From contig JAKPOP010000028.1 in assembly GCA_029547805.1 (NCBI GenBank), positions 1 to 64,000 of the forward strand: a stretch of 64,000 nucleotides of DNA, in the 5' to 3' direction. How positions within the stretch are numbered: position 1 is the stretch's first letter; each line of letters begins with the position of its first letter. The position numbers and the translations under genes are program-made. Positions 4,160 to 10,208 of the stretch are shown here, in pieces. The stretch is from Deltaproteobacteria bacterium (lineage in GTDB: Bacteria > Myxococcota_A > UBA9042 > DTJE01). The notes under the pieces were generated by a model that had not been told where the DNA came from, ran no database searches, and saw only the letters and a program-made list of their open reading frames with translations.

Positions 4160-4831
4160 TCAGGGAGCCGGAGCCATCCGCTTCCAGACCGTGTCCCCGG
4201 CCACGAACCGCTGGGGGTTGCCGTCGGGCCCCACCTCGACCCGGAAGGAACCGCAATCGCCCGAGACCTCCCACGCCTCGGTCGCCTCGATCCCCTCGCC
4301 GGAGGCCTTCCGGACGATCCCCTTCCCGATGCCCTGGGACCGGCTTCCGACGCAGAGGAACTCTCCCTCGTGTCGATCCCGGACCAGCACCCAGGCCAGC
4401 ACCGGCTGGTCCTCTTCCAGGGGACGGACCGCCTCACCCCGCCCCAGGGAGGTCACCTTCGGCTTCGCATTCCCGACCCCCTCGTGGCGCAGTCGGACCT
4501 CCCCGTCGACCACGAAGGCGAACCAGTAGAGCGCCCCGCCCTTGCCGACGTTCTTCCAGCGCTTGTACTTGCCCAGCGCCCCCCTCGGGTCCAGTTCGGC
4601 GTGACACCGCACCGCGGGCGATCCTGGACGGGGGCTCTTGAGGGCCTTCGGTCCGTCGTAGGACGCTGCCACGGCGAAGATGCCTTGCGGGTCTGCCACG
4701 ATGTTGCAGTCATAGCGCCCGACGGCACGTCCCTTCTTCTGGACCTCGAACGCCCAGGGTTTCGGAGACTGTGCCCGGGCCGGCGTCCCCATCCCGATCC
4801 CGATCAGGGCTCCCAGCAGCCAGCGCCTCAT
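4160..4831 (-). CDS. Secreted protein of unknown function
   Basis: The 223-residue product begins MRRWLLGALIGIGMG and has a probable signal peptide cleaved after PARAQ (about residue 20). The start at 4831 is chosen because GGAGGGAT lies upstream and the signal peptide begins there; the open frame extends 60 codons further but with no such support. The mature part looks beta-rich: alternating Tyr/Trp/Val segments such as LYWFAFVVDGEVRLRHEG and PVLAWVLVRDRHEGEF, with a few Cys residues. I do not recognise a catalytic motif. It may be a periplasmic domain of the DUF3108 kind, but that is a guess. Confidence 0.65.
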   Translation of the reverse strand: MRRWLLGALIGIGMGTPARAQSPKPWAFEVQKKGRAVGRYDCNIVADPQGIFAVAASYDGPKALKSPRPGSPAVRCHAELDPRGALGKYKRWKNVGKGGALYWFAFVVDGEVRLRHEGVGNAKPKVTSLGRGEAVRPLEEDQPVLAWVLVRDRHEGEFLCVGSRSQGIGKGIVRKASGEGIEATEAWEVSGDCGSFRVEVGPDGNPQRFVAGDTVWKRMAPAP

Positions 4832-5010
4832 CCCGGATCCCTCCCTGCCGCACCCAGTCGCCGATTCTAGAGGGAACCGCCGGGTCCGGCCAGTTCCTGC
4901 GAACCCCCGCGCCTCGATGCCGGGAAGGCCCCGCGGTTGCAGCAGGAGCCGAGGCCCGGGAGGTGCCCTCGACGCTGGTCCGACGGGACGCACCGGGCGC
5001 AGAATCGACA

Positions 5011-5039
5011 TTGACGAGCGGGGAAGCCCCTTCTAGGAT
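5011..5039 (+). promoter_or_regulatory. Predicted promoter placing the start of transcription at the pssA ATG
   Basis: TTGACG (5011-5016), a 17-bp spacer and TAGGAT (5034-5039) match sigma70 at 5/6 and 4/6. The predicted start of transcription (about 5046) is next to the ATG at 5047, which would make the mRNA leaderless or nearly so. Confidence 0.5.
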
Positions 5040-5046
5040 CGCGTCG

Positions 5047-5796
5047 ATGAGGACGACCTTCCCCCTCAAGGCCCTGATTCCCTTCGCCGCCACCGCCGGA
5101 AACCTGGTCTTCGGTCTCGTGTCCTTGGTGCTGGCGGCCTCGGGACGGTTCGAGGGAGCCGCCTGGTGCATCGTCTATTCGGCCATCCTGGACAAGGCCG
5201 ATGGGACCCTGGCCAGGGCCCTGAAGGTCGAGGGGGCCTTCGGCATGGAGATGGACTCCTTCGCGGACTACACCGCCTTCGGCATCGCCCCCGGGGCATT
5301 GACGTGGTTCCTGGCCGCCGCGCACCTGGAGGGCTTTGCGCTGGTGCTGGCGGCCCTGGGGGGCCTCGCGATGCCCCTGGCCGCCGCGACCCGGCTGGCC
5401 CGGTTCAACGCGGTGACCCACGAGGACCACCGCTTTTTCGAGGGGGTCCCGACCACGCTGATCGGGGGCCTGGTGGCGACCTTCCTCCTGAGCCTCCTGG
5501 ACCTCTCGGTGGCCCCGGGGATCTCGGCCCAGTGGATGATCCCCGCCTGCCTCGCCGGAGGCTGGCTCATGGTGAGCCGTGTCCGCATCCCCAAGATCCA
5601 GCGACAGCAGCGACGATGGAAGGATGTCGGACAGTCGGTGGTCATCGGCGGTCTGTCGATCCTGGCGGTGTTCCAGAAGGCCCCCGAGGCCCACTTCCTG
5701 CTGGGATCCGCCTTCGTGGTGGTCTCCTTCCTGCGCCACGGTCGGTTCGGAAAGGAGGCCCCCCCGGTCTCCGGTACGGGAGGAGGTGAGCGGTGA
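5047..5796 (+). CDS. pssA: CDP-diacylglycerol-serine O-phosphatidyltransferase
   Basis: This inner-membrane CDP-alcohol phosphatidyltransferase makes phosphatidylserine, the precursor of phosphatidylethanolamine. Its 249 residues contain the family signature DGxxAR...GxxxDxxxD, seen as DKADGTLAR, then GAFGMEMDSFADYTAFGIAP (residues about 56-90). About eight hydrophobic helices follow, as in the Bacillus-type (not E. coli-type) PssA. The ATG at 5047 starts a hydrophobic N-terminus (KALIPFAATAGNLVFG). AGGA lies eight bases upstream, but the predicted promoter is so close that it may not be in the mRNA. The stop overlaps the next gene's GTG (GTGA), so the two are translationally coupled. Confidence 0.92.
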   Translation: MRTTFPLKALIPFAATAGNLVFGLVSLVLAASGRFEGAAWCIVYSAILDKADGTLARALKVEGAFGMEMDSFADYTAFGIAPGALTWFLAAAHLEGFALVLAALGGLAMPLAAATRLARFNAVTHEDHRFFEGVPTTLIGGLVATFLLSLLDLSVAPGISAQWMIPACLAGGWLMVSRVRIPKIQRQQRRWKDVGQSVVIGGLSILAVFQKAPEAHFLLGSAFVVVSFLRHGRFGKEAPPVSGTGGGER

Positions 5797-7121
5797 GTGC
5801 AGCGGAAGCCCGTGGCGCCAGGGGAACGGCACTGGTGATCGAGGACCAGAGCGGCGACCTTGCGGCCCTCCGGGAGGTCCTCCAGCAACTGGGCTACGAC
5901 CCCGTTGCCCTGGAGGAGCCGGCCAGGTCGGCCCTGGATGCCTGGGATCACCGGGCCCGCCTGGTCGTGCTGTGCGCCGATGTCCGAAACGGCTTCAACC
6001 TCTGCCTGAAACTGAAGAAGCACCCGGTCTGGAAGCGGACCCCCCTGATCCTGACCACCGGCAAGGCCAGTCCCGAGGTGATCCGAAAGCACCGGTTGCT
6101 GCCCACGCGGGCCGATGCCTACCTGTTCAAGCCCCTGAAGGTCGAGGAACTCATCCAGGCAATCCGGGAGGTCCTCCCGGAGGACTTCGAGCCCGCCCCC
6201 TCGGATCACGAGGCGGAACTCCCGGTGGGCGCGGTGGCGGAGCGGACCCTGGTCTCCCCCGGGCAACTGGAGAATGCGGTCGTCAACTACGTCGAGGACG
6301 AGGTCCGGACCATCCGGTCCACGTTGGAACGGCTGATCAGTGAGAAGCCTCCCACGGGGCCCGTCCCGGTCCAGGGAATCGACCCGGTCGAGTTCCAGAC
6401 CCGCCTGGAGGAGGTCCGGGCACTGGCCCGCCAGCAGGCCGAGGCGGCCTTCGCCGTCGAGCGGGAGCGGCTCCGGACCGAACTGCTGCAGCAGCAGGCG
6501 CTGGTGATCGAGGCCCAGGGACAGGCCGAGGAGGTGCGCCGGGACCTGGCGGACGCTCGGCGAAGACAGGCGGAGGCCGAGGCCCGGGCCGAGGAGGCCC
6601 GCCGGGAGACGGCGGAGGTTCGAGGCCACCTGGCCGAGGCCCTGGCGCGGCAGGAGGAACTCCGAGCCGAGTTGGACCAGACCACGCTGCTCTTCGAGCG
6701 CCTGGAGGCCGGTTACAAGGACGCTCAGCGGAAGATCGAGGCGGAGCGGGACGCCGCCCTGGAAGAGGCCGCCCGCCTCGAGGCGGAACTGGCAGCGGCC
6801 CGGGAGGAGGTGGAGGCGCAGTGGAGGACCGCCCTGGAAGAGGCCAGGGGGGCCGAGGCCGCCAGCCGGCAGGAGGTCGAGAGGGTCAACAAGGAACTGC
6901 AGGGAATGAAGAGGCGCCTGGAGGCCGCGACGGCCGCCGGGGCCCGGGTGGCCGAACTGGAGGGCGAGGTGGACGTCCTGACCCAGCAACTGGAGACGGC
7001 CCGCCAGGCCCTCCTGGAGACCGAATCGATCCGACAGGCCGAGGCCGACGCCCGGCGGGAGATCGAGGCCCTGCGGGCCCGGATCGATCAGGCCCGAAAG
7101 GTCCTGGAGGAGGATGCATGA
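5793..7121 (+). CDS. Pseudo-receiver/coiled-coil protein, FrzS/AglZ-like architecture
   Basis: The 442-residue product has a CheY-like receiver fold (about 11-128) followed by a long coiled coil (about 200-440, rich in Glu/Ala/Arg heptads). The acidic pair E17-D18 and the conserved Thr (T88/T89) and Lys (K113, LFKPLK) of receivers are present. The phospho-acceptor position at the end of strand 3 reads LVVLCADVRNG, with Cys61 where Asp is expected, so it is probably not phosphorylated. Myxococcus FrzS and AglZ, which control polarity and gliding motility, have the same order of a receiver-like domain then a coiled coil. The gene is coupled to pssA upstream (GTGA) and to a lipoprotein gene downstream (ATGA). 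A motility or polarity role is inferred from architecture only. Confidence 0.75.
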   Translation: MSAAEARGARGTALVIEDQSGDLAALREVLQQLGYDPVALEEPARSALDAWDHRARLVVLCADVRNGFNLCLKLKKHPVWKRTPLILTTGKASPEVIRKHRLLPTRADAYLFKPLKVEELIQAIREVLPEDFEPAPSDHEAELPVGAVAERTLVSPGQLENAVVNYVEDEVRTIRSTLERLISEKPPTGPVPVQGIDPVEFQTRLEEVRALARQQAEAAFAVERERLRTELLQQQALVIEAQGQAEEVRRDLADARRRQAEAEARAEEARRETAEVRGHLAEALARQEELRAELDQTTLLFERLEAGYKDAQRKIEAERDAALEEAARLEAELAAAREEVEAQWRTALEEARGAEAASRQEVERVNKELQGMKRRLEAATAAGARVAELEGEVDVLTQQLETARQALLETESIRQAEADARREIEALRARIDQARKVLEEDA

Positions 7122-7501
7122 GGATCCCCTCCCGCGTGCTGATTCCCGGCCTGGCCCTGCTGTGCGCCGCGTGCTCCCCGGGGGTCGGGGACTCCTGTGC
7201 CAGCAACTCCGACTGTGGCACCGAGTTGACCTGCGACCGGTCCCAGCCCGGAGGCTACTGCACCCGGACCCCCTGCGTCCGGTCCGGCTGCCCGTCCAAT
7301 GCGGTCTGCGTTCTCTACGGTGACCAGGTCTCCTATTGCATGGCCCGGTGCGGCCCCTTCGCCTTCTGTCGCCCCGAGTACACCTGCCTCGAAGGCCACC
7401 CCCGACCCGACGGGGAGGACGAGACCTATCCGGCCTTCTGCTCCCCGGCCCCCGGGCCGGTCCTCGATTCCGGGGACGTCCCGCCTGCCGACGCCCCGTG
7501 A
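7118..7501 (+). CDS. Small Cys-rich lipoprotein
   Basis: This is a 127-residue protein with a lipoprotein signal (LALLCAAC, lipidated Cys19). Its mature part has 12 further cysteines, enough for six disulfides, spaced in pairs such as SCASNSDCG, LTCDRSQPGGYC and CVRSGCPSNAVC. This Cys/Asp-rich style is frequent in Myxococcota surface proteins. The start is an ATG overlapping the previous stop. The last 20 residues are Pro/Asp-rich. No function can be assigned. It should be exported and anchored to a membrane, unlike its cytoplasmic coiled-coil neighbour. Confidence 0.8.
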   Translation: MRIPSRVLIPGLALLCAACSPGVGDSCASNSDCGTELTCDRSQPGGYCTRTPCVRSGCPSNAVCVLYGDQVSYCMARCGPFAFCRPEYTCLEGHPRPDGEDETYPAFCSPAPGPVLDSGDVPPADAP

Positions 7502-8863: not shown

Positions 8864-8945
8864 CCGGAGGGCCCGGGAGCCATAGGGTTCGCCGTGGTCG
8901 GAGCCTGGAAGGGGCCGGCCTGGGACCGAGACGACAGGGGGACCG

Positions 8946-10208
8946 ATGACCTGGAATCTGGCATGGGGACTGGGGCTGGTGGTGGTGGCGCTGGCGTTGG
9001 GGGCCCTTCGGGCGGACCTGGGGACCCTCTCTCGGGCCGGCCGGGCCTGGAAGGCCGTCCGGGTGCTGCTGCTGGCCCTGGGCCTCGCGGTGGCCCTGAA
9101 TCTGGTGCCGATCCCCCATCCTGCAGGCGAGGCCCCACCGCTTTCATGGCGCACCGACGTGGAAAACGCCCTGGCCGAGGCCCGGGCCCAGGGCCGGATG
9201 GCGATCCTGGACGCCGGGGCCGAGTGGTGCGCCGCCTGCAAGGAACTCGAACACCGGACGTTCCAGGACCCGGCGGTCGTCGAGGCCCTGAGGGACTTCG
9301 TGACGATCCGGATCGACATGACCGACTTCGACGCGGGCCAGCGGCGTCTGGAGGCGCTGGGCATCGAGGTCTCGTCGCTGCCCTACGTGGCCTTCTTCCT
9401 CCCCGACGGCCGCCGGAATCCGGGGGTCACGCTGCGGGACTACGAGGCCCCGTCGGCATTCCTGCGCCGGGTCTCCCAGGCGGGGACCTGGCAGGAGGAG
9501 GGCGGCGGCCCGGTGGCGCGCTGGCTGGCCGAAAAAGGGATTCTGTGGGCGATGCTGCTGGCGTTCCTGGCGGGCATCGGGGTCAGCCTGACCCCCTGCG
9601 TCTACCCGATGATTCCGGTCACACTGGGAGTCCTGGGGGCCCGCGGCACCACCGAGGGGCCATCGCCGTCGCCGGGATACCGGGTGGGACGGGCCGCGGT
9701 CTTCGTCCTCGGCATGGTGATCACCTACGCGACGCTGGGGGTCGTTTCGGCATTGCTGGGCAAGGGGTTCGGGTCCTGGATCCAGCATCCCGTCGTGACC
9801 CTGGCGATGGCGACCCTGTTCGCGGCGCTGGCCCTGTCCTACCTGGGCTTCTTCTCCCTGGACCTCCCGGAGGGGATCAAGGCCCGCCTCGGGGCCCGGC
9901 GGGGAGGCTTGCTGGGACTGGCGCTGGTGGGGGGAACCACGGGCCTCCTGGCGGCACCGTGCGCCGGGCCGGTGGTGGTGGGAATCCTGGCGGTGGTGAG
10001 CGCCACCCAGTCCGTGGGCCTCGGCTTCGCCTTGATGCTGGCGTTCGGCACGGGACTGGGACTCCTCTTCTTCGTACTGGGCGTCTCGAGCGTCCTGGTG
10101 GCCCGACGGCCCCGGAGCGGCCCCTGGATGGAGCGCATCGAACTGGGCCTGGCCACGGGCCTCCTCGTGGTGGCCCTCTACTACGGGAGACTGGGCCTGG
10201 GCCTCTGA
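8946..10208 (+). CDS. DsbD-like thiol-disulfide transporter with permuted domains
   Basis: The 420-residue membrane protein has two N-terminal helices (about 5-22, 38-56), then a thioredoxin domain (about 65-185) with W94-C95-A-A-C98. A six-helix CcdA/DsbD-type domain follows (about 197-418), with the redox cysteines C218 (LTPCVYPMIPVT) and C339 (LAAPCAGPVV). Canonical DsbD is alpha domain, eight helices, then thioredoxin. Here the thioredoxin precedes the main membrane domain, and the two N-terminal helices could be the last two of the eight. There is no DsbD-alpha domain. It should carry electrons from cytoplasmic thioredoxin to the periplasm. The ATG has GGGGGA four bases upstream. Partner proteins are unknown. 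Confidence 0.85.
   Translation: MTWNLAWGLGLVVVALALGALRADLGTLSRAGRAWKAVRVLLLALGLAVALNLVPIPHPAGEAPPLSWRTDVENALAEARAQGRMAILDAGAEWCAACKELEHRTFQDPAVVEALRDFVTIRIDMTDFDAGQRRLEALGIEVSSLPYVAFFLPDGRRNPGVTLRDYEAPSAFLRRVSQAGTWQEEGGGPVARWLAEKGILWAMLLAFLAGIGVSLTPCVYPMIPVTLGVLGARGTTEGPSPSPGYRVGRAAVFVLGMVITYATLGVVSALLGKGFGSWIQHPVVTLAMATLFAALALSYLGFFSLDLPEGIKARLGARRGGLLGLALVGGTTGLLAAPCAGPVVVGILAVVSATQSVGLGFALMLAFGTGLGLLFFVLGVSSVLVARRPRSGPWMERIELGLATGLLVVALYYGRLGLGL

Follow-up and report, generated by a model that had tools for sequence, protein, structure and literature searches.

The 420-residue protein described here is very probably a DsbD-family transporter in which the domains run TM7-TM8-gamma-TM1-6. 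Its gene lies in the window, by which we mean the whole 64,000-nucleotide stretch of DNA that was analysed. Sequence comparison and structural models together establish the identity and order of its domains, the homology of its leading helices to TM7-8 of DsbD, the conservation of its redox residues and the spread of the arrangement across the clade. By analogy with the family, we infer that it functions as a membrane dithiol:disulfide electron transporter. To our knowledge, multi-helix membrane proteins are seldom circularly permuted in nature, and a published description of a permuted DsbD was not found in the open-access literature. As set out in PMC4460558, DsbD has eight helices, its alpha and gamma domains face the periplasm and electrons pass from thioredoxin through beta and gamma to alpha; the same text presents CcdA as the channel only. 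PMC8782879 splits the family into DsbD-, CcdA- and ScsB-like classes.

The open reading frame starts with ATG, three bases downstream of an AGGGGGA element (Table 1). Given that two members of the same family (L065 and L066) have an in-frame stop six codons before the homologous ATG, the start codon is secure. A Pfam search of the protein placed Thioredoxin_7 at residues 68-153, followed by DsbD_TM at residues 201-412 with 125 bits. The WCAAC motif spans W94 to C98, and C95, C98, C218 and C339 are invariant in 36/36 aligned sequences, as is P146, which we take to occupy the place of the thioredoxin cis-proline. The preliminary description, which was made from the sequence, had read a WCAAC thioredoxin domain followed by a six-helix channel with C218 and C339, and both the Pfam order and the invariant cysteines bear this out.

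Table 1. Features of the permuted DsbD-family gene in window coordinates
Feature	Position	Strand	Basis or remark
Circularly permuted, alpha-less DsbD-family gene, 420 aa	8946..10208	+	
Shine-Dalgarno-like AGGGGGA	8936..8942	+	read from sequence
Leading hairpin, residues 1-62, homologous to DsbD TM7-TM8; helices 3-17 and 30-50	8946..9131	+	
K/R-rich loop joining the leading helices, residues 20-38, predicted cytoplasmic	9003..9059	+	mean 4.31 K+R, 36 sequences
Gamma (thioredoxin-fold) domain, residues 65-182, predicted periplasmic	9138..9491	+	structurally closest to DsbD gamma
WCAAC redox motif, residues 94-98	9225..9239	+	
New junction (gamma-to-TM1 linker), residues 183-197	9492..9536	+	
Predicted six-helix redox channel TM1-6, residues 198-418	9537..10199	+	DsbD_TM 125 bits; best structure CcdA 5vkv
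C218, TM1 channel cysteine (TPCVYP)	9597..9599	+	
C339, TM4 channel cysteine (APCAGP)	9960..9962	+	
New C-terminus directly past TM6, residues 419-420 plus stop; canonical DsbDs continue into TM7	10200..10208	+	

Both curated DsbD-type models match the same parts of the protein in swapped order. The DsbD model NF001419 aligns residues 196-411 with profile positions 165-379 and residues 70-178 with positions 464-571, and the TsoB model NF045694 aligns residues 193-413 with positions 175-390 and residues 12-178 with positions 405-570; the two halves of the protein were also searched separately against the curated NCBIfam models. These swapped matches support the previously suggested order TM7-8, gamma, TM1-6. 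The protein scores 189.5 bits with NF001419, below the cut-off of 330, which shows that permuted proteins can be missed by naming rules built on the DsbD order. Among solved structures, the closest by sequence are DsbD gamma over residues 73-174 and, over the channel, CcdA (residues 203-399). When relatives were translated and compared with the query by BLAST, the exchanged blocks appeared in canonical proteins such as L008, where query residues 196-413 align at 236-452 and residues 3-179 follow at 462-651. The alignments thus bear the mark of a circular permutation, each half having its homologue in a relative but with the order exchanged; with TM1-6, TM7-8 and gamma all homologous to DsbD segments, the protein belongs to the DsbD family in the wide sense.

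The identity of the two leading helices was evaluated in several ways. The gamma-side BLAST block starts at or before query residue 14 in 44/69 canonical proteins, so that one segment spans both leading helices. With a model built solely from canonical TM7-8 segments (69 rows), the query hairpin scored 27.6 bits (E 4e-8); none of 1000 shuffles of the hairpin reached 27.3 bits, the shuffle maximum being 11.2. Profile-profile comparison with hhalign gave 96.5% (E 8e-10) for the leading hairpin against TM7-8, and at most 2.9% against TM1-2, TM3-4 or TM5-6. At the profile level the hairpin is therefore judged to match TM7-8 of DsbD and no other helix pair. The TM7-8 model exceeds 10 bits on the leading hairpin in 31/44 permuted proteins and falls below 10 bits in 13/44. 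It is not perfectly specific, as TM5-6 segments of these proteins exceed 10 bits in 27/43, with a median score of 11.4 versus 16.8 for the leading hairpin; this cross-match perhaps arises in part from some TM7-8 training rows that begin inside TM6. Searched alone against NCBIfam, the hairpin gave no DsbD match. The proposal that the leading helices are the last two of DsbD is nevertheless sustained by hhalign, the shuffles, the BLAST segments and a matching inside-positive charge.

AlphaFold2, run with the 36 permuted sequences, returned a model (pLDDT 88.9, pTM 0.82) in which two helices, residues 3-17 and 30-50, precede a thioredoxin fold and the channel helices follow it. The structure nearest to the modelled gamma domain is DsbD gamma 2fwe (Z 18.2, rmsd 1.8, 114 residues aligned), with ordinary thioredoxins at about 13. 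Since structure searches with the whole model (Foldseek/VIA) gave mainly thioredoxin folds, TM1-6 was modelled separately (pLDDT 83.3). Its nearest structure is CcdA 5vkv (Z 8.5, rmsd 4.6, 190 residues aligned, 24% identity), followed by 9a52, tied at Z 8.0. Given that the CcdA Z-score is middling for a helical fold and that 9a52 is tied with it, the sequence carries the channel claim.

The distribution of positive charge fits an N-out, C-out protein with gamma outside. Over the 36 sequences, mean K+R is 4.31 in the TM7-8 loop, 2.25 in TM1-2, 3.08 in TM3-4 and 2.25 in TM5-6, and 0.39 and 0.17 in the TM2-3 and TM4-5 loops, 0.44 in the N-tail and 0.72 in the C-tail. By eye, several relatives, mostly of family f18, have a signal-peptide-like stretch ahead of TM7, which fits the N-out orientation; no signal peptide was seen in the window's own protein. 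In canonical proteins a median of 17.5 residues separates the positions that correspond to query residues 413 and 5, in the loop between TM6 and TM7. Both the original termini and the new cut in this loop would be periplasmic, so that no helix changes orientation, and as the new gamma-TM1 join is on the same side as the cut, the fold can stay while the chain is re-threaded. This shared side would explain why the permutation is tolerated.

DsbD_N (PF11412) was not found in the protein by Pfam search, nor in any of the 36 permuted sequences, of which it is one, and PF11412 had no match at E 10 elsewhere in the source genome (96.7% complete). The absence of DsbD-alpha, as initially described, thus holds for the protein, its permuted relatives and the genome, but it is not part of the permutation: DsbD_N is present in only 6/40 canonical-order Myxococcota DsbDs examined, which indicates that alpha loss is a separate matter. 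Compared with DsbD of the E. coli type (NF001419), the protein shares TM1-6 with its cysteine pair, TM7-8, a WCxxC gamma and inside-positive loops; it differs in running TM7-8-gamma-TM1-6 rather than TM1-8-gamma, and in having no alpha. The alpha-less canonical Myxococcota DsbDs (L014, L134) have the same parts in the same phylum, also without alpha and with about 40% identity over TM1-6, but in canonical order. CcdA (5vkv) has the same six-helix redox channel, but neither TM7-8 nor gamma. ScsB proteins carry a large alpha region ahead of beta. They have in common with the window protein a DsbD-family channel and a thioredoxin domain, whereas the latter has no large alpha before the channel and no gamma after it. 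One ScsB-like DsbD (L144, bases 4586-7453 of G015) has canonical order and an additional N-terminal thioredoxin ahead of alpha; the same protein, as L079/L084, had been taken as a permuted candidate and was rejected, alpha, TM1-6 and a C-terminal gamma all being present.

The survey of spread that the preliminary description had suggested was run, and the order proved not to be confined to this gene. A permuted match was found in 17/52 genomes of the window's class, and the permuted order in at least 45/377 Myxococcota genomes across 10 families (f1, f2, f3, f5, f6, f9, f18, f27, f29 and f47 among the matches listed). A protein was counted as permuted when a single collinear match ran from residue 63 or earlier to residue 292 or later, and G235, matched in two ordered pieces, was added. 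In that genome L115 (bases 5219-6784) was reassigned by hand from 'PERM2' to permuted, its match being split by a long K/S/E-rich insert in the TM1-TM2 loop. With the same query, 131/290 Bdellovibrionota genomes matched, none collinearly, as did 29/398 Pseudomonadota genomes at a stricter cut, again none collinearly. Of the Acidobacteriota genomes 184/396 matched, and one of the matches listed (G1349) was collinear within one open frame; in Planctomycetota 34/216 matched, five of them collinearly. Further Acidobacteriota rows span thioredoxin and channel with an internal stop, and the six of these that were examined (L156-L161) are separate genes. L041, L043 and L138, called permuted by the automatic rule on long gapped alignments, proved canonical on inspection.

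A segment census of 165 distinct DsbD-like open reading frames assigned 88 to the canonical order (12-34-56-78-gamma), 22 to 78-gamma-12-34-56, including L172, an Acidobacteriota sequence truncated by the end of its contig, and four to 78-gamma-12-34-56-78. Another 25 read as gamma-12-34-56: five from planctomycetes and 20 from Myxococcota, in which the hairpin is below the 8-bit threshold or missing. The rest are partial or have extra domains.

The duplication INTERMEDIATE elsewhere, in four complete Acidobacteriota proteins (L163, L169-L171), looks like the form expected of a circular-permutation intermediate, judged by sequence comparison. TM7-8 occurs twice, in the order alpha-TM7'8'-gamma-TM1-6-TM7-8, the alpha domain being shown by Pfam for L163 only. 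This 683-residue protein (G1349) has DsbD_N at 40-148 (28.4 bits versus a cut-off of 25), TM7'8' at 194-251 (30 bits), gamma at 264-369, TM1-6 at 392-604 and TM7-8 at 603-662 (26 bits); across the four proteins, the two copies score 25-31 and 26-34 bits. Their C-terminal tails score 32-39 bits as TM7-8, whereas the highest of 778 scored shuffles reached 9.8. A search of the L163 class gave a match in 61/142 genomes. G1539, G1540 and G1542 encode full-length relatives at 57-60% identity and G1543 one at 54% that is truncated by a contig end, so the arrangement is not an assembly accident; the classmates L173-L187 are canonical in 15/15 cases. Within one protein the two TM7-8 copies are 33-37% identical, which indicates an old duplication. 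In three of the four, the C-terminus is a short stub (ESGWLKK, ETGWLAPSP or ETGWLQD) that resembles the start of gamma (VELIWLNS, VKLTWIKS, VKLNWIHD) and is perhaps the trace of a lost second gamma. Like the window protein, the four have TM7-8-gamma ahead of TM1-6, but differ in their second TM7-8 past TM6, their alpha and their separate origin.

In five Planctomycetota proteins (L191-L195), gamma, with SCxNC or FCPNC, is placed between an N-terminal region, alpha-like by eye, and TM1. These proteins keep a tail beyond TM6 that scores 3.7-19.1 bits with the TM7-8 model. A hydrophobic pair ahead of gamma in L194 was considered as TM7-8 and rejected at 0.7 bits with this model.

We evaluated the origin of the permuted proteins with trees from which L077, L078, L075, L058, L017 and L059 were excluded. 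On a TM1-6 tree of 108 proteins the permuted rows need two changes, and a single clade is not rejected (p-AU 0.596); on the gamma-half tree they form one clade with support 39. With the halves concatenated (103 rows, a tree also built without the long branches L136, L074, L006, L007 and L023) they again form one clade (SH-aLRT 90), the nearest rows being Bdellovibrionota. Support for a permuted Myxococcota clade is thus moderate. Trees of 66 hand-picked rows included Acidobacteriota and Planctomycetota. For TM1-6, each of the three gamma-first groups is set apart from all other rows by a single branch (support 54, 93 and 100), and the Acidobacteriota group sits among its canonical classmates; joining the Acidobacteriota and Myxococcota groups is rejected by the TM1-6 trees (p-AU 1e-5). 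A tree of these rows from gamma alone, which has few columns, does not reject that joining (p-AU 0.277) and requires five changes for the Myxococcota permuted rows.

Given that CcdA is a channel alone, TM7-8-gamma is best regarded as a tethered module that can move. The module has probably jumped ahead of the channel at least three times, giving a full permutation in Myxococcota, a duplication intermediate in Acidobacteriota and gamma before TM1-8 in Planctomycetota. If this is true, the start, middle and end of a DsbD circular permutation are all readable in living genomes. In the window protein TM7-8-gamma, which lies C-terminal to the TM1-6 channel in canonical DsbDs, has come to lie N-terminal to it. 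The likely route is that the module was duplicated ahead of TM1 and the original copy was then lost. As the Acidobacteriota proteins are a parallel case and not an ancestor, this route is proposed for Myxococcota by analogy; TM7-8 on both sides of TM1-6 was not seen in the Myxococcota loci examined.

The same product could have come about if TM1-6 and TM7-8-gamma had been split into separate genes that changed places and fused again, or through recombination involving a second dsbD, rather than by duplication and trimming. A two-gene state exists for related thioredoxin/CcdA pairs, and the trees name no sister group firmly. We consider such a history unlikely, however, because the duplicated-TM7-8 architecture exists in Acidobacteriota, with a gamma-like stub at the end of three of the four complete copies, and because no stand-alone TM7-8-gamma gene was noticed beside a six-helix gene in the loci examined. 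It is far less probable that there was no permutation at all, and that a membrane-anchored thioredoxin with unrelated anchor helices was fused ahead of a six-helix CcdA-type protein. Such a history might be suggested by two Acidobacteriota loci (L159, L161), in which a thioredoxin gene directly precedes a six-helix CcdA-like gene, and by the source genome itself, which encodes a CcdA with a C-terminal thioredoxin (L088). However, the leading hairpin matches TM7-8 and no other helix pair at the profile level, at a score that none of the shuffles attains, and the thioredoxin domain is of the DsbD-gamma type, whereas the Acidobacteriota upstream thioredoxins carry WCGPC. Separately, the six-helix genes of four other Acidobacteriota loci (L156-L158, L160) are similar to the CcdA-like genes of L159 and L161.

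These data allow us to propose how the permuted protein would work. With no signal peptide, TM7 would enter the membrane N-out and TM8 would lead the chain back to the periplasm, where gamma would fold; TM1-6 would come after gamma and the chain would end in the periplasm. By analogy with DsbD, cytoplasmic thioredoxin would reduce the C218-C339 pair, and electrons would pass from the channel to C95-C98 of periplasmic gamma. Gamma, without alpha, would then itself reduce a separate periplasmic partner or substrate. A conserved redox partner was not seen beside the gene; the neighbours that recur in other families, as identified by eye from their sequences, include DnaK, PNPase and unnamed proteins.

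The permuted DsbD may have given up general disulfide reduction and serve one dedicated partner, leaving cytochrome c maturation to the genome's CcdA-thioredoxin protein. The second DsbD_TM gene of the genome (L088) would suit this division of labour, as would two permuted proteins (L075, L078) in which an additional thioredoxin domain separates TM8 from gamma, as if replacing alpha. Given the lack of a conserved redox partner next to the gene we regard it as somewhat unlikely, and it narrows the explanation favoured here rather than contradicting it. L088, on contig C32, encodes CcdA with a C-terminal thioredoxin-like domain and adjoins an open reading frame with a WCMPC thioredoxin motif.

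That related bacteria keep both the finished rearrangement and an apparent halfway stage illustrates how a multi-helix membrane protein can be re-threaded. It can now be tested whether the way in which channel and gamma are connected affects the hand-over of electrons from the one to the other, and the role of TM7-8, the insertion of an N-out hairpin without a signal peptide and the replacement of alpha likewise become testable.

Several proteins depart from these architectures. L075 (G030) and L078 (G027), both of family f9, are permuted and have two consecutive thioredoxin domains between the leading hairpin and TM1, with WCKPC followed by WCASC or WCTSC; the doubled thioredoxin is perhaps an in-chain substitute for alpha. 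L145 (G018) is DsbD-like with two C-terminal thioredoxin domains. L043, from a MAG record titled Klebsiella pneumoniae, groups with uncultured Gammaproteobacteria rows, and the title may be a misnomer.
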